From a virus, in IMG/VR virus record IMGVR_UViG_3300031718_000001, positions 62,001-126,000 of that record: a stretch of DNA of 64,000 nucleotides; one strand, written 5' to 3'. Positions 3,674 to 32,833 of the stretch are shown here, one piece after another. How positions within the stretch are numbered: position 1 is the first letter of the stretch; every line of letters begins with the position of its first letter. Position numbers and translations under genes: made by a program. The notes below the pieces were generated by a model. It searched no databases. It was not told the DNA's origin and saw only the letters and a program-made list of their open reading frames with translations.

Positions 3674-5581
3674 TTGCTCACCTCCGCCATACCCGGCTAC
3701 GCCGAGCCGGGTGCGTTCGGCCCAGGACTGCTCGCCTTCGTCCCGGGCGCAGCCACCCTGTCGGGATCAGGGTCGCTCAGCGGTGCCTGGTACTTCGGCG
3801 GGGCAGCGTCGCTGTCCGGGTCGGGCACGCTCACCGCCCCGCCCAGGATCATCATCCCGGGCGTAGCAGTCCTGTCGGGGTCCGGAACGCTCACAGCCGC
3901 GGGCGACCTGGAGGGCGCAGCCAGCCTGTCCGGATCGGGTTTGATGTCCGGAACCGGCCAGAAGGAGGTGCCGGGGGGCGCCGCGCTGTCGGGCTCGGGC
4001 ACCCTCGGCGCGACCGGTGCCTTTGCCGGATCGGCGTTGCTGTCGGGCTCCGGCTCGATGACGGCGGCCGGCCAGAAGACGGTCCCGGGTGCTGCCGGGC
4101 TGAGCGGTGCCGGCTCGATGACGGCCGCAGGCTCCTTTGCCGGCGCAGCCAGCCTGTCCGGATCAGGGTCGCTCGCGGCCACCGGGCAGAAGAAGGTACC
4201 TGGCGCGGCTGCCCTGTCGGGGTCCGGCACGCTGGCGGGGAGTGCGGTCTTCACCGGGTCTGCTGCGCTTGATGGCACAGGCTCCCTGGGCGGCACTGGC
4301 ACGACCGGGATACCTGGCGCGGCAGCGCTGTCGGGCACTGGCACGCTCACCGGAGCGGGCCAGCTTGCCGGAGCGGCTGCGCTGAGCGGCACTGGCACGC
4401 TGAGCGCAGCCGGGCAGAAGGCCGTACCCGGAGCAGCCGGCCTCAGCGGTACTGGCACGCTCGGAGCTGCCGGCTCGTTCGCTGGCGCAGCCAGCCTGTC
4501 CGGTACTGGCACGCTGGCTGGCACGGGCCAGAAGTCCGTGCCAGGAGCTGGCGCGCTCAGTGGCACGGGCACGCTCGGGGCGGCCTGGGAGTTCGAGGGC
4601 GCGGCCTCGCTCAGCGGCTCCGGCTCGGTATCTGCGGCTGGGCAGAAGGCCGTGCCAGGCTCGGCCGGGCTGTCTGGCACGGGCACGCTGACGGCCGCGG
4701 GCCAGAAGCTGGTGCCGGGCGCGGCGGCACTGTCCGGGTCGGGCACCCTGACCGCTGGCGTGAACGCGGCCACCCCCGGCGCAGCCGCGCTGTCCGGGTC
4801 CGGGTCGATGCTGGCTGCCGGCGGCGTCATCATCCCCGCCAGCGCCGCCCTGGCGGGCTCTGGCAGCCTCAGCGCGGCCGGGTACCGGACTGTCCAGGGC
4901 ACGGCCGCCCTGGCTGCTGCGGCCGTGCTGACGGCCGCTGCGGCACGTACCGCGGAAGCCGCTGCCACCCTGGCGGGTAGCGGCTACCTCACCGGTTCGG
5001 GTACCGAGGACCTGCCGGGGGCCGCGAGCCTGGTGGGTAACGGCAGCCTGGGAGCTGCCGGCCAGAAGTCCGCGCCCGCTTCGGCTGCCCTGGCCGGCAC
5101 CGGGTCGATGGCGGCCGGAGGGCACCGGACAGTTCCCGCCCAGGCGGGATTCCAGGCCACTGCGACACTGACGGCCGCCGGAACACCAGTGCGCACGGCG
5201 TCGGCCGCGCTGTCCGCCATGCCCAGGATGACCGGGACGGGATCGATCGCCGCCCGGTCGGACATGGCCGCGAGCCCCCGGCTGACTGCCTCCGGGCAGG
5301 TCCTGAAGGTGGCCCAGGCCACCCTGGCGACGGTAGCCGGGCTGACGGCTACCGCATCAGGCGGCCCGGACGTGGCATCGCTGTGGGCCGTATATGCCCA
5401 GGCTGCGGCACGGGCCGCGAGTGCCTGGGAGGCCTGGAGCGAGATGAAGCTGGCAGGCGGCACAACCGGATCGGCGGGCCAGCTCTACGGGACCGCCTAC
5501 GAGGCGCAGATGGCAGCAGACCAGGCCTATGCTGCGTACGTGACTGCCCAGGGTCAGCAGACGGCGGGGGCCAGAGGCTGA
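3674..5581 (+). CDS. solenoid repeat protein (LSGSGTL repeats)
   Basis: 635 residues, TTG start one base after the previous stop. From about residue 25 to 460 it consists of tandem units alternating near 20 and 18 residues with core ALSGSGTLTAAG, many ending QKxVPG. The C-terminal 60 residues become Ala-rich and helical (LWAVYAQAAARAASAWEAW). Such Ala/Gly/Ser repeats would fold into a beta-solenoid or elongated fibre. A second protein at 41617-43638 carries related repeats, so the two may be paralogous parts of fibres. DNA in the repeats is itself repetitive and may recombine. Composition alone cannot say whether it is head or tail borne. Confidence 0.7.
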   Translation: MLTSAIPGYAEPGAFGPGLLAFVPGAATLSGSGSLSGAWYFGGAASLSGSGTLTAPPRIIIPGVAVLSGSGTLTAAGDLEGAASLSGSGLMSGTGQKEVPGGAALSGSGTLGATGAFAGSALLSGSGSMTAAGQKTVPGAAGLSGAGSMTAAGSFAGAASLSGSGSLAATGQKKVPGAAALSGSGTLAGSAVFTGSAALDGTGSLGGTGTTGIPGAAALSGTGTLTGAGQLAGAAALSGTGTLSAAGQKAVPGAAGLSGTGTLGAAGSFAGAASLSGTGTLAGTGQKSVPGAGALSGTGTLGAAWEFEGAASLSGSGSVSAAGQKAVPGSAGLSGTGTLTAAGQKLVPGAAALSGSGTLTAGVNAATPGAAALSGSGSMLAAGGVIIPASAALAGSGSLSAAGYRTVQGTAALAAAAVLTAAAARTAEAAATLAGSGYLTGSGTEDLPGAASLVGNGSLGAAGQKSAPASAALAGTGSMAAGGHRTVPAQAGFQATATLTAAGTPVRTASAALSAMPRMTGTGSIAARSDMAASPRLTASGQVLKVAQATLATVAGLTATASGGPDVASLWAVYAQAAARAASAWEAWSEMKLAGGTTGSAGQLYGTAYEAQMAADQAYAAYVTAQGQQTAGARG

Positions 5582-5587
5582 ACATGG

Positions 5588-5620
5588 AAGAACCCCGGTC
5601 CCCTCTAAACCGGGGTTCTT
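5588..5620. terminator. hairpin terminator between convergent genes
   Basis: A perfect 12-bp stem (5588-5599 with 5609-5620) with a 9-nt loop separates the + strand repeat-protein gene from minus-strand genes ending at 5637. The A-rich left and T-rich right flanks mean it could terminate both directions. Confidence 0.8.
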
Positions 5621-5636
5621 TGACTAGCTAACGGGC

Positions 5637-5843
5637 CTATTCAACCTCCAGGACTACGAGCCGGCCCCTGGGCATCATCTGCGCGAAATACTGGGGCCAC
5701 GTGCTCATCGTCGGGTCCTGCCAGACCACCTTCCCATCGTGCTTGACGGCGATGCCGCCCGAGTCGGGGTCGTGCAGGACAAAGGTGATGGTTACCGGCT
5801 GGCTGCCTTCTTCTGGCGGTCTCGTGCTCTGGCTGCCTGCCAT
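5637..5843 (-). CDS. hypothetical small protein
   Basis: 68 residues on the minus strand, ATG preceded by a strong gggaggga site. A possible short beta unit (VTITFVLHDPDSGGIAVKHDGKVVWQ) resembles in pattern the protein at 53345-53773, also minus-strand and in a similar island. It follows the membrane-protein gene 5856-6404 with a 12-nt gap, so they form a two-gene operon against the direction of the head genes. Confidence 0.65.
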   Translation of the reverse strand: MAGSQSTRPPEEGSQPVTITFVLHDPDSGGIAVKHDGKVVWQDPTMSTWPQYFAQMMPRGRLVVLEVE

Positions 5844-5855
5844 TTCCCTCCCTAG

Positions 5856-6404
5856 CTACCCTTCGGCGCCGGACCTCCCGGCGCGTTCCACATCGGCCCG
5901 GTGCCATTCCTCCAGGCACTGGCGCGAGCAGAACAGGTAGGTCTCTTCCTGGCCATCTTCTCTTTCGACATCAATCGCCCACGGATGGTCACCGAGAATC
6001 TCGTAGCAGGAGATGCCCTTGCAGATGTGCACGGGGCGGGCTTCGCGCGGTCCCCGGCGCAGCAGCTCGGCGCGCTCTTCCTCCTCGACAAGCTGCGCCC
6101 AGGTCTTGCCGTCGGCGGAGAACGGGTCCATCCGCTGGACTGGCGGGGCCTGGGTGACCCGCGGGGTTGCCGGGGCCGGCAGTTGCGGCCGAGCCCGTGG
6201 CGGCTCGATCTCGCGGATGACCATCCTGGTGTGGTGACCGAGCCCGCGGATGAACGCGAACAGGATGGCCGTCATGGCGATGATGGCGGCGAAGATTCCG
6301 ATCACCACGATCAGCACATGACCGTGGACCATGCGCAGAAGGCCCTCGGCCGCCATGTAGACGACGAGGGCCACGATTCCTGCGACGGTGAGCCAGAGCC
6401 TCAC
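5856..6404 (-). CDS. two-pass membrane protein with Cys-rich tail
   Basis: 182 residues, GTG start behind an aaggga site. Two hydrophobic segments (about residues 4-20 and 28-52) are followed by a Pro-rich linker and a C-terminal domain with CKGISCYE and CSRQCLEEW, a Cys4 arrangement likely to bind zinc (similar to small MYM/TRASH-like fingers). It would be anchored in the host membrane with the zinc domain in the cytoplasm. It is in a minus-strand island within late genes, typical of a moron-like insertion expressed independently. Confidence 0.65.
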   Translation of the reverse strand: MRLWLTVAGIVALVVYMAAEGLLRMVHGHVLIVVIGIFAAIIAMTAILFAFIRGLGHHTRMVIREIEPPRARPQLPAPATPRVTQAPPVQRMDPFSADGKTWAQLVEEEERAELLRRGPREARPVHICKGISCYEILGDHPWAIDVEREDGQEETYLFCSRQCLEEWHRADVERAGRSGAEG

Positions 6405-6460
6405 GATTTGTCCCTTAATGCCGGGTTTCCGGCTGTCCGTTCCTTGCTCCTCTCCTTAAG

Positions 6461-6482
6461 TTAGCAAGAAAGCCTGTAACGA
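6461..6482 (+). promoter_or_regulatory. copy 1 of conserved promoter-like element
   Basis: Begins TTAGCAAGAAAG and ends in TGTAACGA, 55 bp before the ATG of the large gene at 6537. It aligns with copies at 25044, 30636 and (minus) 54214. On the minus strand the same stretch also offers TTGCTC, 17-nt spacer, TAACTT ahead of the gene starting at 6404, so it may be divergent. Confidence 0.5.
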
Positions 6483-6536
6483 GCAAGTCTCCGCTGCCAT
6501 TCCGGCTGAGCCCCGGAAGGATGGAGGAGGCGGTCA

Positions 6537-11201
<4,665 letters not shown>

Positions 11202-13188: not shown

Positions 13189-13244
13189 ATGCCCACCTCC
13201 CGGTCGCCCCCAGAAGGAAAGAAGGGCGACCGGGAGGTGGGCAT
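13189..13244 (+). promoter_or_regulatory. perfect 21-bp hairpin sequestering a Shine-Dalgarno
   Basis: Arms 13189-13209 and 13224-13244 pair perfectly around a 14-nt loop. The right arm contains GGAGGTG at 13233-13239, the only good ribosome site for the TTG at 13245, paired with CACCTCC of the left arm. It may act as a translational gate, an attenuator or an intergenic terminator. Confidence 0.8.
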
Positions 13245-16200
13245 TTGCGTAAGTACGCAAGCCTGGAAGTGCTGGAGTCCTGGCGGGTTCCGCAGCAGGC
13301 AGGTCCCGCTGGCCTGCGGAAGGCGGCCCACCGGGTCGCGTTCGACTACACGCCGCGGGCCGGGTATCTCTACGTCCGGTCGAGGATGATCTCCTCCCGG
13401 ACCAACGACAACCATGACACCTTCCCCGCAGGCGAGATCGAAAAGGGATACCGGACGTTCCTGGGCAAGCCGGTATTCATCAACCACCACAACGCAAATC
13501 ACCGGCGCGCTCGCGGGGTGGTCGTCGCTGTCGCCCTGCACCGTGACCGCAACCCGGACAAGAGCCCCGACACCTGGGTCGAGGGGCTGATGGAGATCGA
13601 CGCCCAGCGCTTCCCGAAACTGGCCCAGGCAATCCTGGCGGGCAAGGTCAACCGCACCAGCATGGGCGTCGATGTCGAGTGGTCGCGCTGCTCAGCATGC
13701 GGGAACAAGGCCACCTCCCCGGCTGAGTACTGCCACCACCTGCCAGCACTCAAGGGCAAGAAGATCCGCAAGACCAACCCGGCTACCGGCAAGGTCGAGG
13801 AGCGGCTGATCCACGAGATCTGCGCCGGGTTGTCGTTCTTCGAGAACTCGCTGCTGGTCGAGGAGCCGGCTGACCCATCGGCTTATGTCCTTGATGCACC
13901 TGATGCACGTGGTCTACGAGGTATGTCAGGGTTCGACGTGACTCCACGTACGGCCAGCGCGGATCGAGGCGATGGCCTGGTCACTCACTCCGTACCGGCG
14001 GCCAATGTCCCCCAGGGTGAGCTGCCCTCTTCGTGTGCTTCCCTTCCCAACCGCCACCTGGGGAAGCAGTTCACGCTTGATAACCCGAACGTCTGCTTCG
14101 GTAAGCGTGGCGAACGGGTTCCTGGAGCCCGGCAGGCTGCGCCCCTTGGCCACCATGTCGGCGGAGTTGAAGGCGTTGGTGCCCAGGAGCCAGTGCAGGG
14201 GGTTCATGCACGGTTTCCAGTCGCAGGCGTGGCAGACCACCTGGCCCGGCGGAATGGGACCGCGCACCAGTCTCCATCCGTACCGGTGAGCACGGACACT
14301 CGACCGCTTCGAGTCCGACAGCGAGAAGCGCGGGTATCCGCTGTCAAAGAATCCTCCCGTCCACGGGTTGCAGAATCCCGGTCCAGCCGTGAAGTCGATC
14401 GAGGCGAAGTACCGCTCGATCTCCGGGGCCGTCCTTATGAAGCGTCCGTCCAGTTCGGACCTGCTGACCATGGTGTTAATACTACCGCCTACTTCCTGGG
14501 CCGGCCCGATGCCCGCGGCCTGGACAAGACGGCCGCGGCCAAGCGCGAAGGCGGCGACCACCCGTTCTTCAAGGAACACCCGGTAAGCGCTGCCAATATC
14601 GTTGCCGCTTACCACGACACCACCGACGACGAGAAGTCCCTCGGCGACCGGTGGTATGCCGATGCCCACCACGTCGCAAAGGGGATCGCCGGAGGAGATG
14701 CAGCCAAGGGAGCCGGGCTGCTGTCCGCCTACTCACCGCAGACGGCATGGCCGGTCAACATGTTCAACGCCAGCCGGGCGGCTCAGGGCGATCCGCCTGG
14801 ACCCGGCAGCGGCGCCATGGGCACGCAGCAGAAGTCGGCGATGCACATCCTCGGCGGCGAGCATCACTCGCAGGTGCTGAAGGCCCCGAAGACAGCCGCC
14901 TTCGCTCACCTGATCGAGCACGGCGGAGATACGGCGGCCGACGAGAAGAACGGCACGCACAAGGTCGTTGTTGACCGGCACGCGCTGTCGGTCGCCGTCG
15001 GCCGCCGCCTGGGCAAGGAGGAAGGCAGCAAGGCTCCGCTCGGCCAGACCCAGCACTACGAGCACGTCGCCCAGGCCTACCGCGATGCAGCAAGCCTCCT
15101 GTCCGATGCCACCGGGCGGAAGATCAGCCCGCACCAGGTTCAGGCCGCTACCTGGCTGCGCCAGATCCGCAAGAACCATGAAGAGGACAACTCCGGCAAG
15201 GGCGGCGGAGGCCTCGGAGCCGGCCGCGGCCGGGTGCAGATGCAGAACAACTCCAAGACCAGGTGGGAGCAGCATCACAAGCAGCACCATCCCGGCGGTA
15301 TCGCCGAGGAGAACATGCACTATCACGGCAGGCGGGTGCTGGCCTACGGCGAGACCCGGGTGCCGCCGCAGGTGGACACACTGCGAATGGAGGAGTGCCC
15401 GGTCTGCGGCGAGCACGACGTGTGGTCCGGCGAACGCTGCCCCGTGTGCGGATTCATCGTCCCGCCCAGCCTGTTCCGCGATCCCGACGTGACCAAGGCC
15501 CAGCAGGTCCGCCAGGAGCTGGACCAGGAGGGCGAGGTCGTCACCCAGCCGGGCGCTCCCGGTGACCCGGCCACGCAGCAGATCGGCTCCGGCGAGGATG
15601 CCGACAACCAGCTCATGAACCCGGACCAGGTAGCCCCCGACGGGACGCCAGGCGTCCAGGGCGAGGGCGGCCCGGTGCCCGCGGCTGACACAGACGGGCT
15701 GCCGCCGCTAGCCCAGCAGGGCGAGCCAGGTGACACGGGCGAAGAGGCTCAGGACGAGCAGGCCGAGGAGGACGAGGAGGCTGACGCCGAAGAGGAGGCC
15801 GAGGGCCAGGAGCTGGAAAACCAGGGCGAGGAAGCCCAGCCCGGCGTGCAGCCGGACCTCATGTGCTCCGCGTGCGGGGCCGCTTTCGCGACCGATATGG
15901 CCGCCCAGCCGGGTACGCCGTGCCCGGCCTGCCGCCAGGGGTCGCTGCAACCTGCGGGTGGACCCCCAGAAGGTACAGAAGACCCCGACGCCGAGGACGA
16001 AGAGGACGAGGACGAAGAGATGGCAGGAAGCAAGACGGGCGCCGCGCTCGCTCGCGCTCAGTCGCACCGTATCGCCGTCCTGACCGCCGAGAACGAGGTC
16101 CTGACGGAGCAGCTCCGCTTCCTCGCCTCGGCCGCGGGCGTAGACCGGCACCTGGACGCGATCCGCTCGCAGGTGCTCCGCAGGCACGCGGATGTGCTCA

Positions 16201-16985
16201 ACCCGGCCAGCCCCGTGCCGGACCCGCCCGAGGCCCCGGCAACCGAGAGCACCGAGCAGGCGCTCCAGCCGCTGGCCCAGGATGACCCGTCGCGGCCGGG
16301 TGCCACGCCGGGCGCCAACGCCGGGGTCGCAGCCGAGCAGATGACTACGGCGATCACGCCGGGAGTCGAGATGCAGACTCCGCCGGCCACCAACCTGATC
16401 GACGTGACGGCACCGGTCACCGGCACCAACCCGAGCCAGGACGGCGGCGTGCCGATCCAGCAGCGGCGGATCGAGACCGATGTGAGGGTCGATCCTGATC
16501 CGCTGAAGGCTCACGGGCCTGGCATCGGCGGCCTGGGCGACAACGGCGCCGCCTTCCCCTGGATGCTGGAGGCCCAGCAGCCGCAGGGCCAGCAGCGCCA
16601 GGGGGTTCAGACCGGCCAGGGGATGCGCGCTGCTGCGCTCAATGGCGGCAGTCACCTCGCTCCGCCGGATGAGGCAGCCACCGCCAACCGGACGTTCGCC
16701 TCGATCCGGCTGGCCAGGCTGCGGATCGCCACCGGCTCGGTGCAGGGCGATGAGCTGATGGTCGCCGAGCGGATCGAGAAGGACGCCTCGCTGCCGACGG
16801 CGCTGATCGAGCACGAGATCGCGGTGCTGTCCCGGATGCCGCAGCAGCCGGCCTACCCGCAGCAGCGGCAGATGCAGCGCGCCGGGGCTGCCAGGCAGGC
16901 ACCGTCGCTCGCCTCGGTCGGCGCCTCGATGGGATACGCGCCAGCGGCCATGGACGACATGGACGGCGCGGACCTCTTCCTCTGA
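13245..16985 (+). CDS. capsid maturation protease / scaffold polyprotein interrupted by antisense HNH gene
   Basis: 1246 residues, TTG start immediately after the hairpin. Residues 1-212 look like an actinophage prohead protease (FINHHNANH, NRTSMGVDVEW, a CSACG...CHH metal site). Residues 213-414 are encoded by the strand opposite an HNH gene and look like noise. Then follow a DUF7178-like domain (about 429-650; SAYSPQTAWPVN, VVVDRHALSVAVGRR), a zinc ribbon (717-740; CPVCGEHDVW, CPVCGF), acidic linkers, a second CxxC pair (872-900), a short coiled coil (944-964) and a scaffold-like tail. The protease would cleave scaffold during head maturation. It precedes the capsid genes. Alternatives are two separate products or removal of the insert. 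Confidence 0.65.
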   Translation: MRKYASLEVLESWRVPQQAGPAGLRKAAHRVAFDYTPRAGYLYVRSRMISSRTNDNHDTFPAGEIEKGYRTFLGKPVFINHHNANHRRARGVVVAVALHRDRNPDKSPDTWVEGLMEIDAQRFPKLAQAILAGKVNRTSMGVDVEWSRCSACGNKATSPAEYCHHLPALKGKKIRKTNPATGKVEERLIHEICAGLSFFENSLLVEEPADPSAYVLDAPDARGLRGMSGFDVTPRTASADRGDGLVTHSVPAANVPQGELPSSCASLPNRHLGKQFTLDNPNVCFGKRGERVPGARQAAPLGHHVGGVEGVGAQEPVQGVHARFPVAGVADHLARRNGTAHQSPSVPVSTDTRPLRVRQREARVSAVKESSRPRVAESRSSREVDRGEVPLDLRGRPYEASVQFGPADHGVNTTAYFLGRPDARGLDKTAAAKREGGDHPFFKEHPVSAANIVAAYHDTTDDEKSLGDRWYADAHHVAKGIAGGDAAKGAGLLSAYSPQTAWPVNMFNASRAAQGDPPGPGSGAMGTQQKSAMHILGGEHHSQVLKAPKTAAFAHLIEHGGDTAADEKNGTHKVVVDRHALSVAVGRRLGKEEGSKAPLGQTQHYEHVAQAYRDAASLLSDATGRKISPHQVQAATWLRQIRKNHEEDNSGKGGGGLGAGRGRVQMQNNSKTRWEQHHKQHHPGGIAEENMHYHGRRVLAYGETRVPPQVDTLRMEECPVCGEHDVWSGERCPVCGFIVPPSLFRDPDVTKAQQVRQELDQEGEVVTQPGAPGDPATQQIGSGEDADNQLMNPDQVAPDGTPGVQGEGGPVPAADTDGLPPLAQQGEPGDTGEEAQDEQAEEDEEADAEEEAEGQELENQGEEAQPGVQPDLMCSACGAAFATDMAAQPGTPCPACRQGSLQPAGGPPEGTEDPDAEDEEDEDEEMAGSKTGAALARAQSHRIAVLTAENEVLTEQLRFLASAAGVDRHLDAIRSQVLRRHADVLNPASPVPDPPEAPATESTEQALQPLAQDDPSRPGATPGANAGVAAEQMTTAITPGVEMQTPPATNLIDVTAPVTGTNPSQDGGVPIQQRRIETDVRVDPDPLKAHGPGIGGLGDNGAAFPWMLEAQQPQGQQRQGVQTGQGMRAAALNGGSHLAPPDEAATANRTFASIRLARLRIATGSVQGDELMVAERIEKDASLPTALIEHEIAVLSRMPQQPAYPQQRQMQRAGAARQAPSLASVGASMGYAPAAMDDMDGADLFL
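13881..13919 (+). repeat. recoded copy of HNH target (left)
   Basis: Encodes AYVLDAPDARGLR; the right copy at 14487-14525 encodes AYFLGRPDARGLD. Nine of 13 residues agree, and eight of the nine shared codons differ at the third base. The distance is 606 bp, a multiple of three. Confidence 0.75.
13926..14471 (-). CDS. HNH homing endonuclease inside protease gene
   Basis: 181 residues on the minus strand. The HNH core is VVCHACDWKPCMNPLHWLLGTN followed by NSADM (residues about 78-106), close to the HNH_3 pattern. The C-terminal part (LGDIGRRYGVSDQAIASIRAGRTW) is a helix-turn-helix that would bind DNA. The ATG at 14471 is preceded by TAGTAT with a 7-nt gap and no ribosome site, so it is probably expressed leaderless. 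It cuts DNA at a homing site, most likely the uninterrupted protease gene. Codon use is less GC-rich than its neighbours at the edges, which supports recent acquisition. Confidence 0.85.
   Translation of the reverse strand: MVSRSELDGRFIRTAPEIERYFASIDFTAGPGFCNPWTGGFFDSGYPRFSLSDSKRSSVRAHRYGWRLVRGPIPPGQVVCHACDWKPCMNPLHWLLGTNAFNSADMVAKGRSLPGSRNPFATLTEADVRVIKRELLPQVAVGKGSTRRGQLTLGDIGRRYGVSDQAIASIRAGRTWSHVEP
14487..14525 (+). repeat. target copy for HNH (right)
   Basis: Encodes AYFLGRPDARGLD with host-like codons; pairs with the recoded copy at 13881. Confidence 0.75.
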
Positions 16986-17722: not shown

Positions 17723-18751
17723 ATGACAGAGCTGGCCACTGTTTCGGCTGGCGGGCAGCTAGCGCTGGCTCCGCAGGGCGGCGGCCTGCGACCGCGTGTT
17801 GCCTCCCGGAAGAGCGACGACTACGTAGCCCAGATCGAGGCACGCCGCGCCCGAACCGGCGGCCAGAGCCTGACTCGCGAGGCCAAGGTCCGCAAGATGG
17901 CCTTGATCTTGTCGGACGAGATGCACGGCTTCCGCAGGCTGGGAGTCGGCATGGTCGGCCCCATCCAGCTCAAGCTGCGCTACCAGGGCATCGTGCGCAA
18001 TGTCCTGGTCGAGGACCCGGTGACCCCGGGTACCCCGGTCGAGTACGACGTGTGGGATGACCTCGGCCAGGCCTACATCCTGTCCGGAACCGAGGGCGAA
18101 GTCCGGGTCACCCCGTTCGAGGGTAAGCGAATCCCTGTCCGGTTCTTCCGCATCGCCTCGCGCCCGGCCCTCCGCAAGGAGGACCTGTTCTACCTGCGGA
18201 TCAACGCGGTCGAGCAGGCTCAGGACGAGACCAAGCAGGCGATCCTCAAGCAGGAGGACGCCCGGCTGCTCGTCCTGCTCCAAGCCGCGATCACGGACTA
18301 CGCCACCCGGCCCGACCATGTGGTCACCCCGAACCACAACATCACCGAGGCCAGCGGCTACCTGACCCCGGGCTCGATGTACTCGGCCGTGGCCATGACC
18401 GACCTGCACGAGCTGCCCAGCGCGCGGATCCTGATCAACCCGTTTGACTACCGGGACATGTTCCGCTGGGATATCAACCAGACCGGCTGGGCTTTCAAGG
18501 ACAGGGTGGTCGCCGGCGAGACGATCACCAGCTTCGGCGAGTTCCAGATTCAGCGTTCGATCATCGTGCCCCAGGCCAAGATCTTCCTGGCCCCAGAGCC
18601 GAATTTCCTCGGTGTCTTCCCGATTCTTTACTCGCTCGATGTCGAGGAGAATCACAACGTCGAGGCATTCTGGAAGGGATGGGTGTTTGATGAGATGGTT
18701 GCCATGAGCATCCTGAACCCCCGCGGGCTCGCCAGCATCACCAAGTCGTAA
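17723..18751 (+). CDS. major capsid protein
   Basis: 342 residues, ATG behind aggaaaggaccccc. The N-arm (about 1-60) is basic, followed by alpha/beta composition typical of an HK97-like subunit, with ILINPFDYRDMFRWDINQTGWAFKDRVVAGE and VPQAKIFLAPEPNFLGVFPI in the C-terminal half. Length is near the usual 300-400 residues. Placement after protease-scaffold and decoration genes supports the call. It would assemble into the icosahedral shell after cleavage by the upstream protease. Confidence 0.8.
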   Translation: MTELATVSAGGQLALAPQGGGLRPRVASRKSDDYVAQIEARRARTGGQSLTREAKVRKMALILSDEMHGFRRLGVGMVGPIQLKLRYQGIVRNVLVEDPVTPGTPVEYDVWDDLGQAYILSGTEGEVRVTPFEGKRIPVRFFRIASRPALRKEDLFYLRINAVEQAQDETKQAILKQEDARLLVLLQAAITDYATRPDHVVTPNHNITEASGYLTPGSMYSAVAMTDLHELPSARILINPFDYRDMFRWDINQTGWAFKDRVVAGETITSFGEFQIQRSIIVPQAKIFLAPEPNFLGVFPILYSLDVEENHNVEAFWKGWVFDEMVAMSILNPRGLASITKS

Positions 18752-25280: not shown

Positions 25281-25300
25281 GTTTCCCACAACTGCACATA

Positions 25301-25375
25301 GGGGCGTAGCTCAGTTTGGTAGAGCCCCGGTCTCCAAAACCGGGTGTCCGCGCGGGTTCGAGCCCTGCCGCCCCT
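25301..25375 (+). tRNA. tRNA-Trp(CCA)
   Basis: Cloverleaf with anticodon loop CTCCAAA and T loop TTCGAGC; acceptor GGGGCGT has one mismatch at its base. First gene of the array. Confidence 0.9.
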
Positions 25376-25717
25376 GCGACCGCCGGCCGAGCGAGAGCGA
25401 CGCGGGCGCATGTCAACTGGATCTTGTCAACTCAACAGCGGAACACAGCGGCGGGCGCCATCCCGCCGCGCGACGTGGCGGAAGATACCCGAGCTACACC
25501 GGGGGTTAAGGGAGTACCCGGCGCCACGTCTGTTTGACTCGGGGCGGCCTGGACGGAAGCTGATAAGGCATGCCGGGCAACCGGACGCCAGGCCGCCCTG
25601 TCAAGACTTTTTGCGCAGGATGCAAGAGGTTTGCATCCTGCGCAAAATGACCGGGGCCGTCGATTATGTCCCGGGTATGCAGGCAGTAAAAGAAGCGGAT
25701 ACAACAACTGCCTGCTC
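25376..25717. other. 342-bp spacer with three strong dyads, no gene
   Basis: Holds GACGTGGCG/CGCCACGTC (25472-25530), GGGCGGCCTGG/CCAGGCCGCCC (25542-25598), a perfect 17-bp hairpin (25609-25625 with 25631-25647) and CAGGCAGT/ACTGCCTG (25680-25714). No coding frame is convincing. The first dyad encloses a TTAA-containing loop reminiscent of a degenerate tRNA-Leu. Confidence 0.6.
25609..25647. terminator. perfect 17-bp hairpin, possibly bidirectional terminator
   Basis: Arms 25609-25625 and 25631-25647, 5-nt loop, T run on one side and A run on the other. Confidence 0.7.
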
Positions 25718-25791
25718 GGGGCCTTAGCTCAGTCGGTACGAGCGCTTGCGTGGCACGCAAGAGGTCACGGGTTCGAGGCCCGTAGGCTCCA
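25718..25791 (+). tRNA. tRNA-Ala(GGC)
   Basis: Anticodon loop GTGGCAC; acceptor carries the G3-T70 pair diagnostic for alanine. Confidence 0.9.
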
Positions 25792-25931
25792 CAGGGCATC
25801 CGTCCGGCCGGGCGGTGCCTGAATATGGGCAGGATGGGCCGCGTTCAGGCGGCCTGGCGGAAACGGCAGCAGGGCGTGCTGGACAACGCACTGCTCCGGA
25901 CATCCTGGGGCCGGAGGGTACCTGGCACAGC

Positions 25932-26004
25932 GGGGCTATGGCGCAGTTGGTAGCGCGCTTCCTTCGCAACGAAGAGGCCGCCGGTTCGATCCCGGCTAGC
26001 TCCA
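25932..26004 (+). tRNA. tRNA-Ala(CGC)
   Basis: Anticodon loop TTCGCAA; G3-T70 pair present; one mismatch at the foot of the anticodon stem. Confidence 0.88.
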
Positions 26005-26134
26005 CGTGGTGAGCCGTGGCACGGCATCCGACGGGGTTGATCGCCCCGCGCAGGCTGATCACCTGCGTCAGCAAGGTAACCGGCATATCCGGGCGCGAAT
26101 CCCAGCGCCCCGGCCGGAGCAACTCACCACTCCA

Positions 26135-26208
26135 CGGGACGTAGCGCAGTCTGGCAGCGCGCCTGCCTTGGGCGCAGGAGGTCGCCGGTTCGGATCCGGC
26201 CGTCCCGA
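26135..26208 (+). tRNA. tRNA-Pro(TGG)
   Basis: Anticodon loop CTTGGGC; T loop TTCGGAT has G at position 58. Confidence 0.9.
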
Positions 26209-26268
26209 CAGCGCCCCGGGGTACGGTGATTACTTGTGCGTCCGCCAGGCGATCACGGAGTGTTCGGG

Positions 26269-27564
26269 ATGTCATCAGTTCTCAGGTCAGTCACGGGCTG
26301 GAAGGATCTCTGCCACCCGGGTAAGCGCCGTCTACAGCCCCAGGACCGGTCAATGGCCGGGCCGCTGGTGGCCGCGCCCTTCGAGCTTTCGGAGTTCCCT
26401 CCGGTCCCTGAATCGAGCCAGCTTCCCCCGCTCAACCCGGACCTGATCACCGGCTCCCTGGGCAGCATGACTGCCGGCCCTCAGACGTGCGCCGGAGACT
26501 TCTACGGCTACCTGTTCGCCGCCCAGCCGGGCCTGCGGGGGATGTTCCCGCCGCAGATGTCCGTGCAGAACGAGCGGCTGTTCGGCGCGCTCGTACGGAT
26601 TGTGAGCCTGCTAGATAAGCCGTACCTGCTGGCGGGCTACCTCGCCCAGCTCGGCGCCGACCACCGGAAATACGGCGTCTCCCCCGAGCACTACATGCCG
26701 GTGGGCGACGCGCTCATCCGGGCGCTGCGCCGCCACTGCAAGACATGGGACGAGTCCACCGAGCGCGCCTGGATGACGGCCTACTCCATGGCCGCGGACA
26801 TGATGATCACCGGGGCCGAGGCCCAGACCGGGCCGGCCGCCTGGCGCTGCCAGGTCGTCAAGCACGAGCGCCGCACCCACGACCTGGCCGTCGTCACGGT
26901 ACGGCCTGATCAGCCGCTGCCCTACGAGGCCGGCCAGTACGTGACGGTGCAGACCCCGCGCTGGCCCCAGGTCTGGCGGCACTTCTCGGTCGCCAACGCC
27001 CCGGCCGCTGACGGGCTGATCGACCTGCACATCCGGGCCGTGCCGGCCGGGTGGGTGAGCAATACCCTGGTCTCGCTGACCTCGCCGGGCGACGAGATCC
27101 TGCTCGGCCCGGCTGCCGGGGAGATGACGGCAGGCCACGCGAACGGCAGCGACCTGGTGTGCGTCGCGGGCGGCACGGGCCTGGCCCCGCTCCGGGCGAT
27201 TGTCGAAGATGTGCTGCGCAGCGATGAGGAGAACGTCGCGGCGGGCACGGGCGTGCGGCGCAACATCAGCCTGTTCCACGGCGCTCGCGATCCCCTCGGC
27301 TTCTACGACATGCCTCACCTTCGCGAGCTGTCCTCGTTCTACCCGTGGTTCCAGGTGGTGCCGGTTATCTCCGGCGATCACGATTTCGGCGGTCTCCGGG
27401 GCAATGTGGCTGAAATAGCCGTAAAGCATGGCGATTGGAGCGAACGGCATGCATTCATCTCGGGGCCGGAGGGAATGGTCCGGGATGCCGTTCTCGGCTT
27501 CCAGGCGGCTGAGGTGCCTGATGCACAGGTGCATTACGACGGCATCGAGGTGGGAGATGCATGA
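26269..27564 (+). CDS. globin-coupled FAD/NAD(P)H reductase (flavohaemoglobin type)
   Basis: 431 residues from ATG 26269 (cggag 8 nt upstream); GTG 26236 and ATG 26353 are alternatives. A globin domain (about 55-185) has a DFYGYLF motif with the distal B10 Tyr (Y79) and DHRKYGV with the proximal haem His (H132). An FAD-binding reductase domain follows, with RHFS (237-240), then an NAD(P)H domain with GGTGLAP (301-307). This is the architecture of flavohaemoglobins, which use NAD(P)H to turn NO and O2 into nitrate. The ATGA overlap with the NOS gene means both are made together: it may feed electrons to NOS, detoxify surplus NO, or both. It begins 61 bp after a tRNA-Pro, without a visible terminator. 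Confidence 0.88.
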   Translation: MSSVLRSVTGWKDLCHPGKRRLQPQDRSMAGPLVAAPFELSEFPPVPESSQLPPLNPDLITGSLGSMTAGPQTCAGDFYGYLFAAQPGLRGMFPPQMSVQNERLFGALVRIVSLLDKPYLLAGYLAQLGADHRKYGVSPEHYMPVGDALIRALRRHCKTWDESTERAWMTAYSMAADMMITGAEAQTGPAAWRCQVVKHERRTHDLAVVTVRPDQPLPYEAGQYVTVQTPRWPQVWRHFSVANAPAADGLIDLHIRAVPAGWVSNTLVSLTSPGDEILLGPAAGEMTAGHANGSDLVCVAGGTGLAPLRAIVEDVLRSDEENVAAGTGVRRNISLFHGARDPLGFYDMPHLRELSSFYPWFQVVPVISGDHDFGGLRGNVAEIAVKHGDWSERHAFISGPEGMVRDAVLGFQAAEVPDAQVHYDGIEVGDA

Positions 27565-28691
27565 CTCTGCGCGTGTTTCCCAGGCGCGTCCCGCAGGCTG
27601 GCGCGGCCGTGCTGGCCGAGGCCGAGATGTTCCTGGCTGAGTTCTACGCCGCCTGTCCTGCACCCGGTGAGGCATCCGCGCGGATGGCCCAGGTCCGCGA
27701 GTCCGTGCTCGCCACCGGCACCTACGAGCACACGCCGGAGGAGCTGGAGTACGCCGCCAGGATCGCCTGGCGGAACGCGGCCAGGTGCTCGGGGCGGGAC
27801 AAGTGGCGGACCCTGCGAGTGCGCGACTGCCGGACGGTATCGGACCCCAAGCAGGTCGCCGACGAGACCGTCGCCCACCTGCGCACTGCCACCAGCCACG
27901 GCCGGGTGCGATCCTGGATCACGGTGTTCGCCCCGGACAGGCCCGGTAATCCCGGCCCGCGGATCATCAACGGGCAGGCCGTCCGGTACGCCGGCTACCG
28001 CCAGCCGGACGGCGTGACCGGGGATCCGGTCAACGTGGCCCTGACCGACCTGGCGGTCAGTCTCGGCTGGCGGGGCCGCGGCGGGCGGTTCGACGTGCTG
28101 CCCCTCATAACTATGGACGGCAGCGGGGAGCTGTGCTGGTCGGACGTGCCGCCCGATGCGGTGCTGGAGGTCCCGATCAGCCACCCGGACTTCCGGTGGT
28201 TCAGCAAGCTCGGGCTGCGCTGGTACGCCATTCCGGTGATCACCGACATGTACCTGGAAGCCGGCGGCATACGCTATCCGTGCGCGCCGTTCAACGGCTG
28301 GTACCAGGCGAGCACAGAGGTCGGAGTCCGGAACCTCGGCGACGAGACCCGCTACAACGTCCTCCCCGATGTGGCCAGGGGCATGAAGCTGGACATGTCA
28401 TCGCCGAGCACGTTCTGGATGGACCGGGCCGCGGTCGAGCTGGCCGTGGCCGTCCATCACAGCTACCGCCGGGCCGGCGTAGTGGTCACCGACCACCAGG
28501 CCGAGACACGCAGGTTCGCCCACTGGGCTGCCCGGGAGGGCGAGGCCGGGCGCGAGGTGCCGGCGGACTGGGCGTGGATCGTCCCGCCAGTCAGCGGCAG
28601 CACGACCCCCGTGTTCCACCAGGAGTATCAGGCCGCGGTGCTGAAGCCCGGCTACTTCAGGCACGAGGATGGCCCGCTGATCAGCGGGTGA
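27561..28691 (+). CDS. nos: nitric oxide synthase oxygenase
   Basis: 376 residues, the usual size of bacterial NOS. ATG overlaps the upstream TGA (ATGA). IAWRNAARCSGR (residues 68-79) holds the haem-ligand Cys76 and the stacking Trp70; PFNGWYQASTEVGVRN (243-258) holds the substrate-binding Glu253; DWAWIVPP (336-343) gives the pterin-stacking tryptophans; HQEY and KPGYF lie near the C-terminus. It would oxidise L-arginine to citrulline and NO using O2 and electrons from a reductase, here perhaps the adjacent gene. Compared with the remembered GWYMGTE pattern, one extra residue lies between GWY and TE. The stop codon is directly followed by tRNA-Pro. Confidence 0.93.
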   Translation: MTLRVFPRRVPQAGAAVLAEAEMFLAEFYAACPAPGEASARMAQVRESVLATGTYEHTPEELEYAARIAWRNAARCSGRDKWRTLRVRDCRTVSDPKQVADETVAHLRTATSHGRVRSWITVFAPDRPGNPGPRIINGQAVRYAGYRQPDGVTGDPVNVALTDLAVSLGWRGRGGRFDVLPLITMDGSGELCWSDVPPDAVLEVPISHPDFRWFSKLGLRWYAIPVITDMYLEAGGIRYPCAPFNGWYQASTEVGVRNLGDETRYNVLPDVARGMKLDMSSPSTFWMDRAAVELAVAVHHSYRRAGVVVTDHQAETRRFAHWAAREGEAGREVPADWAWIVPPVSGSTTPVFHQEYQAAVLKPGYFRHEDGPLISG

Positions 28692-28765
28692 CGGGACATG
28701 GCGCAGTCCGGCAGCGCGCGTGCTCGGGGAGCACGAGGTCGTCAGTTCAAATCTGGCTGTCCCGA
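28692..28765 (+). tRNA. tRNA-Pro(GGG), C33
   Basis: Anticodon loop TCGGGGA: position 33 is C. Begins on the base after the NOS stop codon. Confidence 0.82.
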
Positions 28766-29110
28766 CGGAGCCGGATGTACACCGGCTTGCTGGAGCCCGG
28801 CCTTGCTAACCGGGTGCGGTGCTGAGTGTTAGCAGCACGGTGATCCGGCTGGGCGGCAGCGCCGTCCGATGGTGATCCAGGGACGATGCGAGGTCGTCGG
28901 CACCACTGACTGAGGTTCGGTACACGGCTGCGGGTAGAGGGCAGAAGGCGCTGCCACCCCTCGCAAGGGGGAGACTCCCGTTCGATTCGAGGATCGCCGC
29001 AGACGCAGTGGCCGCGTTTCCCTAGCAAGCGGAGGCGAAAACCGCAGGACGGCAGAAGCTTGCAGGTGGCCAGGGTGGTATAGCCGCGCGGCACTACCCT
29101 GGCGCCGATT
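28766..29110. other. 345-bp spacer, tRNA-like element and hairpins
   Basis: AGCCGGAT (28769-28776) pairs with ATCCGGCT (28843-28850) enclosing 82 nt with TTGCTAA in a loop, like a degenerate tRNA-Ser(GCT) lacking a T loop. A second segment (about 28930-29003) holds short hairpins; GCCAGGGT/ACCCTGGC lies at 29069-29103. No protein gene is convincing. Confidence 0.45.
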
Positions 29111-29184
29111 CGGGCTGTAGCGCAGCTTGGCAGCGCGCCGCGTTCGGGACGCGGAGGCCGCCGGTTCAACTCCGGCCAGCCCGA
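29111..29184 (+). tRNA. tRNA-Pro(CGG)
   Basis: Anticodon loop TTCGGGA; perfect CGGGCTG/CAGCCCG acceptor. Confidence 0.92.
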
Positions 29185-29223
29185 CCTAAGATCTGAGACA
29201 GACTGCTGGCGGAGGGAAGCGCG

Positions 29224-29430
29224 ATGTGGCTGTTCGAGGCCCTGACGGTCCTGGTGGCGGGCGGGGCAGTGAGCCTGTACCTGCTCCTGCTGTTCTGGGG
29301 CGTTGTCATTTTCGGCATGCGGGCGCGCGAGATTCCTGCCCTGGCCTGGAGCATGGTCGCCGGCTGGGAGCAGCAGAACCGGCTCAAGGCCATCCTGGCA
29401 GCCAGGAAAGGTACGAACGCGGTCAGGTAG
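29224..29430 (+). CDS. small single-pass membrane protein
   Basis: 68 residues, ATG behind ggagggaagcgcg. Residues 8-32 are a hydrophobic helix, then a basic amphipathic tail. Its last 10 nt run into tRNA-Phe, so the stop codon lies in the tRNA acceptor arm. Embedded in the tRNA array; role unknown. Confidence 0.6.
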   Translation: MWLFEALTVLVAGGAVSLYLLLLFWGVVIFGMRAREIPALAWSMVAGWEQQNRLKAILAARKGTNAVR

Positions 29431-29494
29431 CTCAGTCGGTACGAGCGCCTGCCTGAAAAGCAGGAGGTCGCCGGTTCGATGCCGGCCCTGACCA
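29421..29494 (+). tRNA. tRNA-Phe(GAA)
   Basis: Anticodon loop CTGAAAA; acceptor GGTCAGG/CCTGACC. Overlaps the end of the preceding gene. Confidence 0.93.
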
Positions 29495-29829
29495 CGAGAT
29501 CGGCGATCGACGGTCTTTGGCCCCCGCGGTAAGCGCATCGGGGGGTAGAGCGGCGGCAGGTTTGCGGCCGGGTGATGAGCCTGGCCTGACCCTTCGATGG
29601 GAGCGCTGCGCGATGGGGCTTCATGAGGCCCCGTAAGTCAGGTAGCGAAGCGGTGTGACTCCGTACTGGGCGCGGCCGAGGCGTGCACGCTGAATCCGTG
29701 AGGGTCCGACTCCCGGCGAATGGCCAGCTACCTGGCGTAGGTCCCTGGGGAAGGTAACGACGCCCCTGTGAGCCGGGCCGCAAGCCCGGCAACAGCAGGC
29801 TCCGGCTCGACCAAGCCAGGGACCGCCCT
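29495..29829. other. 335-bp spacer without gene; dyads
   Basis: CAGGTAGC (29639-29646) pairs with GCTACCTG (29727-29734). GCCGGGC/GCCCGGC (29772-29790) is a compact hairpin. A T-arm-like GGGTCCGACTCCC near 29702 is not part of a foldable cloverleaf. Confidence 0.45.
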
Positions 29830-29900
29830 GCGGGCGTGGCTCAATGGCAGAGCACCAGCCTTCCAAGCTGGCCACGCGGGTCCGATTCCCGTCGCCCGCT
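29830..29900 (+). tRNA. tRNA-Gly(TCC)
   Basis: Anticodon loop CTTCCAA; T loop TCCGATT has C at position 55. Confidence 0.9.
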
Positions 29901-29914
29901 CGTATAGTCGGAGC

Positions 29915-30109
29915 ATGATGCTCCGCCAGGTAAGGCTCCGGTCAGGCAGCACCGAGCTGACCTGCTGGATGGAATCCCGGGTCAGGATGGGAGATGTCAT
30001 CACGCTGAAGAACAGCGATTCCCCGGGGGTTCTCTGGTCCGTCGAATGGGCCGGCAGCCAGCTTCGCGAGCCCCTGTCGATCAACAGGGGCTGGAGCAAT
30101 AACATCTAG
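29915..30109 (+). CDS. small beta-rich protein, leaderless
   Basis: 64 residues from ATG 29915 (a second ATG follows). TATAGT ends 6 nt upstream; no ribosome site. GDVITLKNSDSPGVLWSVEWAG suggests a small barrel. Function unknown. Confidence 0.55.
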   Translation: MMLRQVRLRSGSTELTCWMESRVRMGDVITLKNSDSPGVLWSVEWAGSQLREPLSINRGWSNNI

Positions 30110-30114
30110 CACGC

Positions 30115-30141
30115 GCGCCGCTAGCTCAGAGCAGTGGTATC
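30115..30141 (+). repeat. 5'-half remnant of tRNA-Lys
   Basis: GCGCCGCTAGCTCAGAGCAG resembles the 5' half of the intact tRNA-Lys at 30548 (GCGCCGCTAACTCAACTGGT). It precedes the HNH gene and marks the left side of its insertion. Confidence 0.6.
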
Positions 30142-30150
30142 CTTAAACAC

Positions 30151-30585
30151 GTGCCAAGAGACCGTGAGCTGTACAACGCTTACATGGCGTCGTACATGAA
30201 GAGCTGGTACGACCGCAGGCATGCCGAGGCTGTGGCGGCTCTGGGCGGGCACTGTGCACATCCTGGTTGTTATGAGGTCGATGACCTTCAGTTTGACCAC
30301 ATCGACCCGCAAACAAAGACCATGACGATCGCTAGGATGTGGACTGCCTCAGAGGAGCGGTTCCAGACAGAACTGAAGAAGTGCCAACTCCTTTGCTGGC
30401 CGCATCACCTGGAGAAGACGCTCGCAGAGAAGAACCAGCGCTCTGCGCGCGGAACGCACGGTACGGTGACCGCTTACCGCTACTGCGGACCTCCAAAGTG
30501 TGAGGCGTGCAGGGCCGCCAAGCGTTCCGCGCCCAGCTACAAGGCACGCGCCGCTAACTCAACTGGTAGAGAGCCGCACTCTTAA
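30151..30585 (+). CDS. HNH endonuclease at tRNA-Lys
   Basis: 144 residues, GTG with TATCCT ending 7 nt upstream and no ribosome site. HCAHPGC (34-40), LQFDHIDPQTK (46-56) and CQLLCWPHHLEKT (78-90) make a complete HNH/zinc core. C-terminal CGPPKCEACRAAK adds a second zinc knuckle. It probably homes to a tRNA gene: a tRNA-Lys half lies upstream, and the 3' end of the ORF overlaps the intact tRNA-Lys by 38 nt. Confidence 0.85.
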   Translation: MPRDRELYNAYMASYMKSWYDRRHAEAVAALGGHCAHPGCYEVDDLQFDHIDPQTKTMTIARMWTASEERFQTELKKCQLLCWPHHLEKTLAEKNQRSARGTHGTVTAYRYCGPPKCEACRAAKRSAPSYKARAANSTGREPHS

Positions 30586-30620
30586 TGCGGAAGTTCGGGG
30601 TTCAAGTCCCTGGCGGCGCA
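30548..30620 (+). tRNA. tRNA-Lys(CTT)
   Basis: Anticodon loop CTCTTAA; perfect GCGCCGC/GCGGCGC acceptor. Overlaps the HNH ORF end. Confidence 0.92.
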
Positions 30621-30635
30621 CGCAAGTCGTTGTCA

Positions 30636-30657
30636 TTAGCAGGAAAAGCTGTATTAT
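30636..30657 (+). promoter_or_regulatory. copy 3 of conserved promoter-like element
   Basis: TTAGCAGGAAAAGCTG then TATTAT, inside the tRNA array; probably restarts transcription of the second half. Confidence 0.5.
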
Positions 30658-30775
30658 GGAGTCATCCCGGTTCCGCAGGGACAGAACGAAAGCTAGCGCC
30701 TCGCTCCCGGCAAGAGCGTTATAGGGCCTCCGCTTGCGGAGGTGGCGTTTCCCCTGCGGTGCCAGGATCTCCGGC

Positions 30776-30857
30776 GGGCGAGTGGCGGAATGCAGACGCG
30801 CCGGCCTCAAAAGCCGGTGTCCGCGAGGACGTGAGGGCGCGAATCCCTCCTTGCCCA
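30776..30857 (+). tRNA. tRNA-Leu(CAA)
   Basis: Long variable arm; anticodon loop CTCAAAA; odd T loop CGCGAAT. Confidence 0.88.
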
Positions 30858-31022
30858 CAAGCGCCGACGGCGAGCGCCGAGCAGACCAGGACGGGCAGCC
30901 CCCGTCCCAGGTGCCGGCGCGGGGCGCGGTATCAAGTACCGGATCGTCCGTCCGGGTGGCGCCCGGAGGAGGAGGGGACTACGCAGACCCGACCTGTCCT
31001 GAGTGGATCGGGCCGCGTGCCA

Positions 31023-31094
31023 TGGGGTATTGGGTAATTGGCAGCCCGCAAGGTTCTGGACCTTGTCGTCCTGGTCCGAGTCCAGGTACCCCAG
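31023..31094 (+). tRNA. tRNA-Gln(CTG)
   Basis: Anticodon loop TTCTGGA; T loop TCCGAGT with C55. Confidence 0.9.
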
Positions 31095-31168
31095 CATGGC
31101 CGCGCTCTGCTTGCGGCCGAGGTCCCAGCCTCGGTTCTGGGCACAGGCGGAGACGGCCGCAGTACCAG

Positions 31169-31242
31169 GCCCCGATAGCTCAGTCGGCCAGAGCGTCCCA
31201 CTCGTAATGGGAAGGTCGCCGGTTCGATGCCGGCCCGGGGCT
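31169..31242 (+). tRNA. tRNA-Thr(CGT)
   Basis: Anticodon loop CTCGTAA; T loop TTCGATG. Confidence 0.9.
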
Positions 31243-31375
31243 CGTGTGGACAGCTCGTATCGAGGAGTGCCCGGTCTGCCATAAGGGCGTGGCCGTACGG
31301 CCGCTGACCGGCCGGCTCTGGCGGCACGGCCAGGAGACATGCTGCCCTGGCAGCGATAAGACAGCAGGAGAACTG

Positions 31376-31460
31376 GTCCGAATGGCGGAAATGGCAGACG
31401 CGCCAGCTTGAGGTGCTGGTGCCCGCGCAGGGCGTCCGGGTCCGAATCCCGGTTCGGACA
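31376..31460 (+). tRNA. tRNA-Leu(GAG)
   Basis: Long variable arm; anticodon loop TTGAGGT; T loop TCCGAAT with C55. Confidence 0.9.
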
Positions 31461-31557
31461 CGGTGAGGAGATCCAGGACTGGCGCTCCTGGCCGGTCCCC
31501 GGGGCCGGTAGCTCAAGATGCCGGCCGCCCGGGTGGCCAGAGCGCCTCACATGACTT

Positions 31558-31630
31558 GCCGGTCTAGCTCAGTTGGCAGAGCGCCCGTCTTGTAAACGGG
31601 AGGTGATCGGTTCGAGGCCGTTGACCGGCT
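31558..31630 (+). tRNA. tRNA-Thr(TGT)
   Basis: Anticodon loop CTTGTAA; acceptor GCCGGTC/GACCGGC. Confidence 0.92.
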
Positions 31631-31635
31631 CTCGT

Positions 31636-31708
31636 TCCGGGGTGGGTTGACGGTATCCCGGCCGGGTTTTGGCCCCGGCGCACGCTGGTCCGACTCCAGC
31701 TCCCGGAG
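31636..31708 (+). tRNA. tRNA-Gln(TTG)
   Basis: Anticodon loop TTTTGGC; T loop TCCGACT with C55. Confidence 0.88.
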
Positions 31709-31719
31709 CACAGTGACTT

Positions 31720-31793
31720 GCCTCCATAGCTCAGTTGGAACGAGCGCGCCCCCGGTACGGGCGAGGTCACCGGTTCGGCTCCGGTTGGAGGCT
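31720..31793 (+). tRNA. tRNA-Thr(GGT), C33
   Basis: Five perfect anticodon-stem pairs frame loop CCGGTAC, so position 33 is C; T loop TTCGGCT has G58. Confidence 0.85.
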
Positions 31794-31806
31794 CGCAGTA
31801 AAGCAC

Positions 31807-31879
31807 GCGGACGTAGCTCAGTTGGTAGAGCGCTACCTTGCCAAGGTAGGGGTCGCGGGTCCGAAGCCCGTCGTCCGCT
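31807..31879 (+). tRNA. tRNA-Gly(GCC)
   Basis: Anticodon loop TTGCCAA; T loop TCCGAAG with C55. Confidence 0.9.
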
Positions 31880-31881
31880 CT

Positions 31882-31957
31882 GAGATCACGACCCGAGATA
31901 ACTGGTGCCGGGACGGAACTCCATGCCAATACCTAATCCGTTTAGCGGCGTGATCTC
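31882..31957 (+). other. 76-nt tRNA-like element
   Basis: GAGATCACG (31882-31890) pairs perfectly with CGTGATCTC (31949-31957), the exact span of a tRNA. A D-arm-like CCCG/CGGG and an arm ACGGA/TCCGT lie inside but no normal anticodon loop or T loop. Confidence 0.35.
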
Positions 31958-31961
31958 TTGA

Positions 31962-32047
31962 GTCCGGGTGGTGGAATAGGCAGACACGCACGGTTCAGGC
32001 CCGTGTGTCCCTCGCGGGACATGAGAGTTCAACTCTCTCCTCGGACA
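31962..32047 (+). tRNA. tRNA-Leu(CAG)
   Basis: Long variable arm; anticodon loop TTCAGGC. Confidence 0.9.
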
Positions 32048-32051
32048 CGTT

Positions 32052-32138
32052 GGAGCGGTCGCCTAGTCAGGCCTAGGGCGCGTAACTGCTAATTACGTAG
32101 GGGTAACACCCTCGCGGGTCCGAATCCCGCCCGCTCCG
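32052..32138 (+). tRNA. tRNA-Ser(GCT)
   Basis: Long variable arm; anticodon loop CTGCTAA; T loop with C55. Confidence 0.92.
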
Positions 32139-32142
32139 CTCT

Positions 32143-32229
32143 GGGAGGTTCGCCTAGTGGCCTATGGCGCCCGGCCGGAAACCGGGTTGGGAGTAACGCC
32201 CCTCGCGGGTCCGAATCCCGCACCTTCCG
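32143..32229 (+). tRNA. tRNA-Ser(GGA), C33
   Basis: Anticodon arm CCCGG, loop CCGGAAA, CCGGG: C33. T loop with C55. Confidence 0.87.
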
Positions 32230-32230
32230 C

Positions 32231-32425
32231 TCAGATCTCGATCCGGATCATCTGCTCCGGCAGCGGCCGGTGCACCACGGCGTCGATCTCGGCCGCGAAC
32301 TCATCCGGCAGTCCATCCACCCGGTACAGCGAGCGTTTCATGAACATGGCCACGTAGTTGGCTGCTTCCTCGGGCCGGGCCAGGCCGCGCATCCTGACCG
32401 TCACCGTCACCTCGGGATCGTCCAT
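32231..32425 (-). CDS. small hypothetical protein between tRNAs
   Basis: 64 residues on the minus strand. ATG at 32425 has TACGTT ending 6 nt upstream and no ribosome site, so it is probably leaderless. Strand-helix pattern (EVTVTVRMRG, then helices), acidic C-terminus. Unknown family; opposite to the tRNAs on both sides. Confidence 0.6.
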   Translation of the reverse strand: MDDPEVTVTVRMRGLARPEEAANYVAMFMKRSLYRVDGLPDEFAAEIDAVVHRPLPEQMIRIEI

Positions 32426-32453
32426 GCGGCCAACGTACCGAGAGTCTCCGCCT

Positions 32454-32540
32454 GGTGAGGTCGCCTAGTGGCCTAGGGCAGCCGCCCCGAAAGCGGCCAG
32501 GGTGAAATACCCCTCGTGGGTCCGAATCCCACCCTCACCG
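32454..32540 (+). tRNA. tRNA-Ser(CGA), C33
   Basis: Anticodon arm GCCGC, loop CCCGAAA, GCGGC: C33. C55 as well. Confidence 0.87.
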
Positions 32541-32549
32541 CTCTGGCAA

Positions 32550-32632: not shown

Positions 32633-32634
32633 CC

Positions 32635-32829: not shown

Positions 32830-32833
32830 ACGG

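Follow-up and report, generated by a model that had tools for sequence, protein, structure and literature searches.

An HNH endonuclease gene lies antisense within the putative head maturation protease gene of this phage, and an antisense HNH gene is found at the same codon and in the same phase in 7 of 83 distinct protease genes, the window included. By the window we mean the whole stretch of 64,000 nucleotides analyzed here, part of a 165,085-base virus record. An earlier note on this DNA had described the opposite-strand HNH gene and a protease frame that stays open through it, and both descriptions hold: 181 HNH codons sit inside an open frame of 1246 codons. To judge by sequence comparison, this is probably an intron-less HNH homing endonuclease gene, tolerated inside the protease gene as an unspliced, disordered linker.

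The host open reading frame (13245..16985, plus strand, 1246 aa) is stop-free over its full length and comprises a head-maturation-protease-like N-terminal part, a variable linker holding the insert, a DUF7178 domain and a C-terminal part. Residues 68-211 match the head maturation protease PHROG 18299 (E = 1.8e-21), the ORF also matches phrog_2774 (E = 1.8e-61), and the major head protein (phrog_2522) is encoded downstream at 17723-18751. A protease-family profile in the gene, and its place ahead of the major head protein, argue for a head maturation protease. Gene order from protease to head gene is identical in Mycobacterium phage LinStu, and among named phages the protease part is closest to that of Bxz1-type mycobacteriophages (45% identity), which share the arrangement of genes around protease and head. 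Related contigs are present in two Streptomyces assemblies. The DUF7178 domain (PF23802, residues 449-639, 14589..15161, plus strand, E = 6e-36) shares its frame with the protease domain, and the frame is thus kept across the insert; no sequence match to DUF7178 was found among solved structures at E up to 1. Across the 83 homologues, the linker after the protease domain is hypervariable. DUF7178 starts at very different distances, homologue ORFs with a stop found range from 465 to 1826 residues counted from the start of the protease match, and some homologues carry Cys-rich stretches in the linker, which looks like a cargo region.

The HNH gene (13926..14471, minus strand) encodes 181 aa with an intact HNH motif and a helix-turn-helix-like C-terminal part. 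The mechanical ORF begins at 14672; the start was set at the ATG at 14471 and the stop at the TGA at 13928-13926, on the basis of homologues and a promoter motif. HNH codons are exactly opposed to protease codons, third base against first base. The protein matches phrog_1872 (E = 9e-20), PHROG 826 and PHROG 59, and its score of 22.8 against Pfam PF13392 (HNH_3, E = 7e-5) is just below the curated cut-off of 24.8. Residues H81, C83, C88, N90, H93 and N102 are invariant across nine HNH sequences, and this motif of conserved His/Asn plus Cys points to an HNH endonuclease. The best structural match of a weak predicted model was I-HmuI (1u3e; Foldseek probability 0.97, E = 0.012), and the sequence itself had one weak match among solved structures (E = 0.057).

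The HNH ATG is directly adjoined by a TAGTAT-N7 promoter of the leaderless type (14472..14484, minus strand). The pattern TANNNT-N7-(A/G)TG stands before the HNH start in all seven inserts and in 1 of 15 free-standing HNH controls; on the HNH strand of the seven loci it accompanies 12 of 2161 RTGs, presumably including the seven. A Shine-Dalgarno match was absent upstream of the HNH start in six of the seven inserts. In the available text of PMC3898074, leaderless actinobacterial genes have this arrangement, with a TANNNT -10 box lying a short distance ahead of the start codon. The insert HNH genes appear to be such leaderless genes, with a promoter of actinobacterial type.

The seven carriers, all from metagenomic contigs, are the window, L009/L038/L111, L016/L045/L112, L017/L047/L113, L048, L067 and L053/L132. 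A first comparison kept 80 of 114 matches, and loci L261-L263, added later, contain no HNH gene. The earlier note had called for a comparison with uninterrupted homologues, in which conserved protein sequence at the insert would speak against its reading; no such conservation was found, and 76 of the 83 homologues lack this insert. In all seven carriers no stop interrupts the protease frame along the HNH gene, and the frame runs on into the conserved C-terminal part, which is homologous to uninterrupted genes in each (for L053, 1 of the 76 matched, with E = 1e-226). The left junction falls at one common place: in L111, L112, L067 and L132 the HNH stop is the complement of the Leu codon closing an RGL/PGL motif, and in the remaining three it lies within a few codons of that Leu codon. 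The right-hand junctions differ in all seven.

As the earlier note had reported, two target copies, AYVLDAPDARGL at 13881 and AYFLGRPDARGLD at 14487, lie in the same frame 606 bp apart, a multiple of three, and their shared residues mostly use different third bases (eight of the nine common residues; D is GAT in both). The left remnant, PSAYVLDAPDARGL (13875..13916, plus strand), is synonymously recoded, with G/C-ending codons in 2 of 14 cases versus a fraction of 0.87 for the gene upstream. The right copy (14487..14525, plus strand) shows no recoding and resembles the uninterrupted sister L031 (AYFLGKPDARGL). A second copy of the motif is recognizable in three of the seven carriers, the window, L009 and L016. 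Left of the insertion, recoding covers about 14 codons, in which amino acids are mostly kept and third bases are unusual, and it ends 15-20 codons out. Relative to its own gene, the left flank has a mean GC3 shift of -0.37 in the 7 interrupted genes versus -0.06 in 32 uninterrupted ones (Mann-Whitney P = 0.0014), a comparison covering the 39 of 83 genes with the required motif. One target copy has thus been recoded, as proposed. The accompanying suggestion of import from a relative is possible in that the HNH clade has moved between phages, yet the recoded tracts vary from phage to phage, and repeated recoding fits better than one import.

Two other sources of the recoded flank were tried and rejected. 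For co-conversion from one donor, identity to L031 along the window protease shows no clear tract, and recoded tracts differ between phages. A transcription terminator fares no better: the 60 nt after the HNH stop gave no stronger folding than shuffled sequences in six of the seven (z between -0.4 and 0.9; L047, z = -2.2). Left-flank recoding may instead protect the carrier from self-cutting, with a nuclease recognizing the left side. The unrecoded right copy in the window would agree with such immunity only for a nuclease that requires sequence to the left of that copy. In L113 there is almost no left-flank recoding (-0.01). The target segment after the protease domain is recoded in the uninterrupted genes L042, L064 and L055 (GC3 shift, -0.25 to -0.46), and empty genes of this recoded kind, L042 among them, may represent resistant alleles or former HNH carriers. 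L113 and these empty genes do not simply fit the immunity reading.

Phylogenies suggest that the element moves. Six of the seven insert HNHs form one clade (support 1.0), whereas the L053 HNH groups with a free-standing HNH from L134 (support 0.89), suggesting that an HNH gene entered this codon and phase separately. The protease tree disperses the inserts: uninterrupted genes are the neighbors of the window, L111, L113 and L132 and, less closely, of L112. The window and L067 are 66% identical in HNH and 62% in protease, whereas the values are 63% and 77% for L047 and 63% and 78% for L048. The L067 HNH is thus closer to that of the window despite a more distant protease, which argues for transfer by homing. 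A site empty in close relatives, together with apparent transfer between lineages, is what a homing gene would leave, and the patchy distribution of one HNH clade over scattered proteases is, on the evidence of the trees, a homing pattern.

In the sense frame, the insert (13917..14486, plus strand) reads as 190 codons without a stop and is predicted, by a weak model, to be unstructured; structure prediction for residues 1-639 was poor throughout (mean pLDDT, 40) and, at mostly 23-36 within the insert, uninformative there. The protein would carry about 200 extra residues, in keeping with the in-frame, antisense-coded insert first proposed. A conserved function of this segment was rejected because the first bases of the sense codons, opposite the third bases of the HNH codons, show free variation. 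Third bases differ at 36-66% between inserts, and among the seven carriers the sense residues are not conserved beyond the HNH coding constraint. Such free drift fits a spacer, not a domain.

Openness of the second strand is by itself weak evidence, whereas its recurrence in seven of seven inserts is unexpected by chance. The in-register antisense frame is open in 184 of 453 sampled 181-codon host-gene stretches of the window (41%), and in 12 of 34 GC3-matched free-standing HNH genes versus all seven inserts (P = 0.002). In L016, an antisense frame is open for 4 kb through a host gene (4658-8656, minus strand), a caution that such phages commonly have long antisense ORFs. The rival that survives best, although we consider it unlikely, is that GC-rich coding produced a coincidence: a single HNH insertion whose antisense frame was open by luck and was then inherited, under no selection. 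The two open fractions just given favor it, as does the single clade of six HNHs. Codon usage does not. Fourfold codons differ at 40-77% between inserts, yet the stop-complement codons TTA, CTA and TCA number 0 of 155 in the seven inserts versus 47 of 512 in the 34 controls (P = 3e-6), and the second entry suggested by L053, again at the same codon and phase, also tells against a single lucky event. When codons were recoded synonymously in simulation, with either control-HNH or host usage, all seven frames were open in 0 of 1000 runs under either table.

The NCA codons (Ala, Pro and Thr in HNH, Cys or Trp in the protease frame) are likewise scarce, at 4 of 233 in inserts versus 125 of 1228 in controls (P = 3e-6; gene-level P = 6e-4), whereas GGA and CGA, sense Ser, are not reduced (57 of 233 versus 185 of 1128). 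The controls were 34 free-standing HNH genes of matching GC3 range; wider ranges, with 60 and 74 controls, gave the same picture. On the plus strand, the window has a dense array of 38 predicted tRNA genes (25300-34873). The window tRNAs carry anticodons matching CCA, ACA and TCA, and missing tRNAs thus do not explain the avoidance. NCA avoidance could reflect the codon preferences of this HNH clade, which departs from the controls elsewhere too in favoring GAA. The seven inserts are not fully independent, six being one clade, and with the five most divergent inserts the open-gene test weakens to P = 0.011.

Somewhat less credible is proteolytic excision, in which the PDARGL-like motif would be the protease's own cut site and its duplication would let the insert be trimmed at both ends. 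The motif is kept despite the recoding, is located after the protease domain and is duplicated in the three carriers named above; the remaining four show no recognizable second copy, and we know of no cut site for a PDARGL-like motif. We doubt still more that the gene has been split, with the protease separated from a C-terminal protein that has its own start in or after the insert. Proheads often need protease and other parts apart. Precedents exist in mobE within nrdA and mobA within gene 60, where, in the available text of PMC2988022, the host gene becomes two coding regions. A split gene has no need to preserve frame and openness, yet the frame is continuous and open in seven of seven; the C-terminal part may nonetheless have its own start.

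Removal by splicing, the other option that the earlier note had left standing, is very improbable. Homing endonucleases commonly travel in introns or inteins. Endonuclease genes in antisense orientation have been described from group I introns of rDNA (PMC9548176, available text). Yet a scan of 13200-15200 against Rfam at E up to 5 gave two chance hits only and no intron family, hence no group I or II ribozyme core around the HNH gene. Between residues 225 and 448, Pfam revealed neither an intein nor any other domain at E up to 1, and the HNH gene and promoter together take up most of the 606 bp.

Under the preferred reading of an unspliced linker, a mobile HNH gene with its own leaderless promoter would have settled antisense in the linker just after the protease domain and stayed in. 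The complementary strand is stop-free in register, so ribosomes on the late structural mRNA could pass through, adding about 190-200 unstructured linker residues. Selection on the host phage would keep the frame open by excluding TTA, CTA and TCA from the HNH gene, and it appears to act against Cys and Trp in the linker. The HNH protein, probably made early, with the protease late, would cut the uninterrupted gene of co-infecting relatives, and repair would copy the element into the cut gene. The left target half, recoded with its amino acids largely kept, would probably let the element spare its own genome. Only tentatively, and with less confidence than in the tolerated insert itself, do we propose the full combination: dual-strand coding with neither RNA nor protein splicing, a stop-free, Cys- and Trp-poor, unstructured complement, a recoded remnant that makes the carrier immune, and at least two entries at the same codon, gene and phase. 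If true, a homing endonuclease gene would have one more means of living harmlessly inside an essential gene. Antisense insertion that recurs without closing the frame of a structural protein would add a niche to those known for homing genes, and one DNA would be under constraint on both strands. The insert would also offer a natural gauge of the tolerance of a phage assembly protein, and the nuclease recognition sequence could be read from the recoded flank without biochemistry.

Homing endonuclease genes are known in introns, inteins and intergenic gaps, or splitting a host gene. I-HmuI sits in a group I intron in sense orientation; the present gene shares with endonucleases of this kind the HNH motif and patchy presence at one site among relatives, but is antisense and has no intron. 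Free-standing phage homing endonucleases (T4 seg and mob genes, T7 gp7.7-like) belong to the same HNH family but sit between genes, whereas here the HNH gene lies within a single open frame and is flanked there by conserved parts. T4 segD is antisense but intergenic (PMC2988022, available text). Like mobE and mobA, the insert is an endonuclease gene within coding sequence; unlike theirs, its host gene remains one open frame. I-DirII and I-DsqI, from nuclear rDNA group I introns, are likewise expressed from the strand opposite their host gene; according to the available parts of PMC9548176 and PMC3073962, that host is an RNA gene and the insert is cut out by a ribozyme. GC-rich genomes also contain antisense overlapping genes, with which the present pair shares the tendency of in-register antisense frames to be open, but here one partner is mobile and the overlap is seen repeatedly at a single site. 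Within the openly licensed literature, as far as its available text extends, we found no earlier report of a homing gene lying antisense within an open protein frame, a weak negative.

Antisense nesting does not appear to be a general habit of this HNH family. Among 142 HNH matches from 260 loci plus the window, copies of the same contig included, the opposite frame was open at least 200 bp past both ends in 25, of which 20 were copies of the seven; the other five (L123, L172, L195, L201 and L210) had short overhangs. The family matches 974 INPHARED records, and in none of the phage records with an annotated HNH match whose surrounding annotation was examined was the gene nested inside another. 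Two further phage records contain an HNH match without an annotated gene of its own. One such match, at 2501-2929 of Klebsiella phage K5-2 (L126), directly precedes a DNA ligase gene and looks like an unannotated free-standing HNH.
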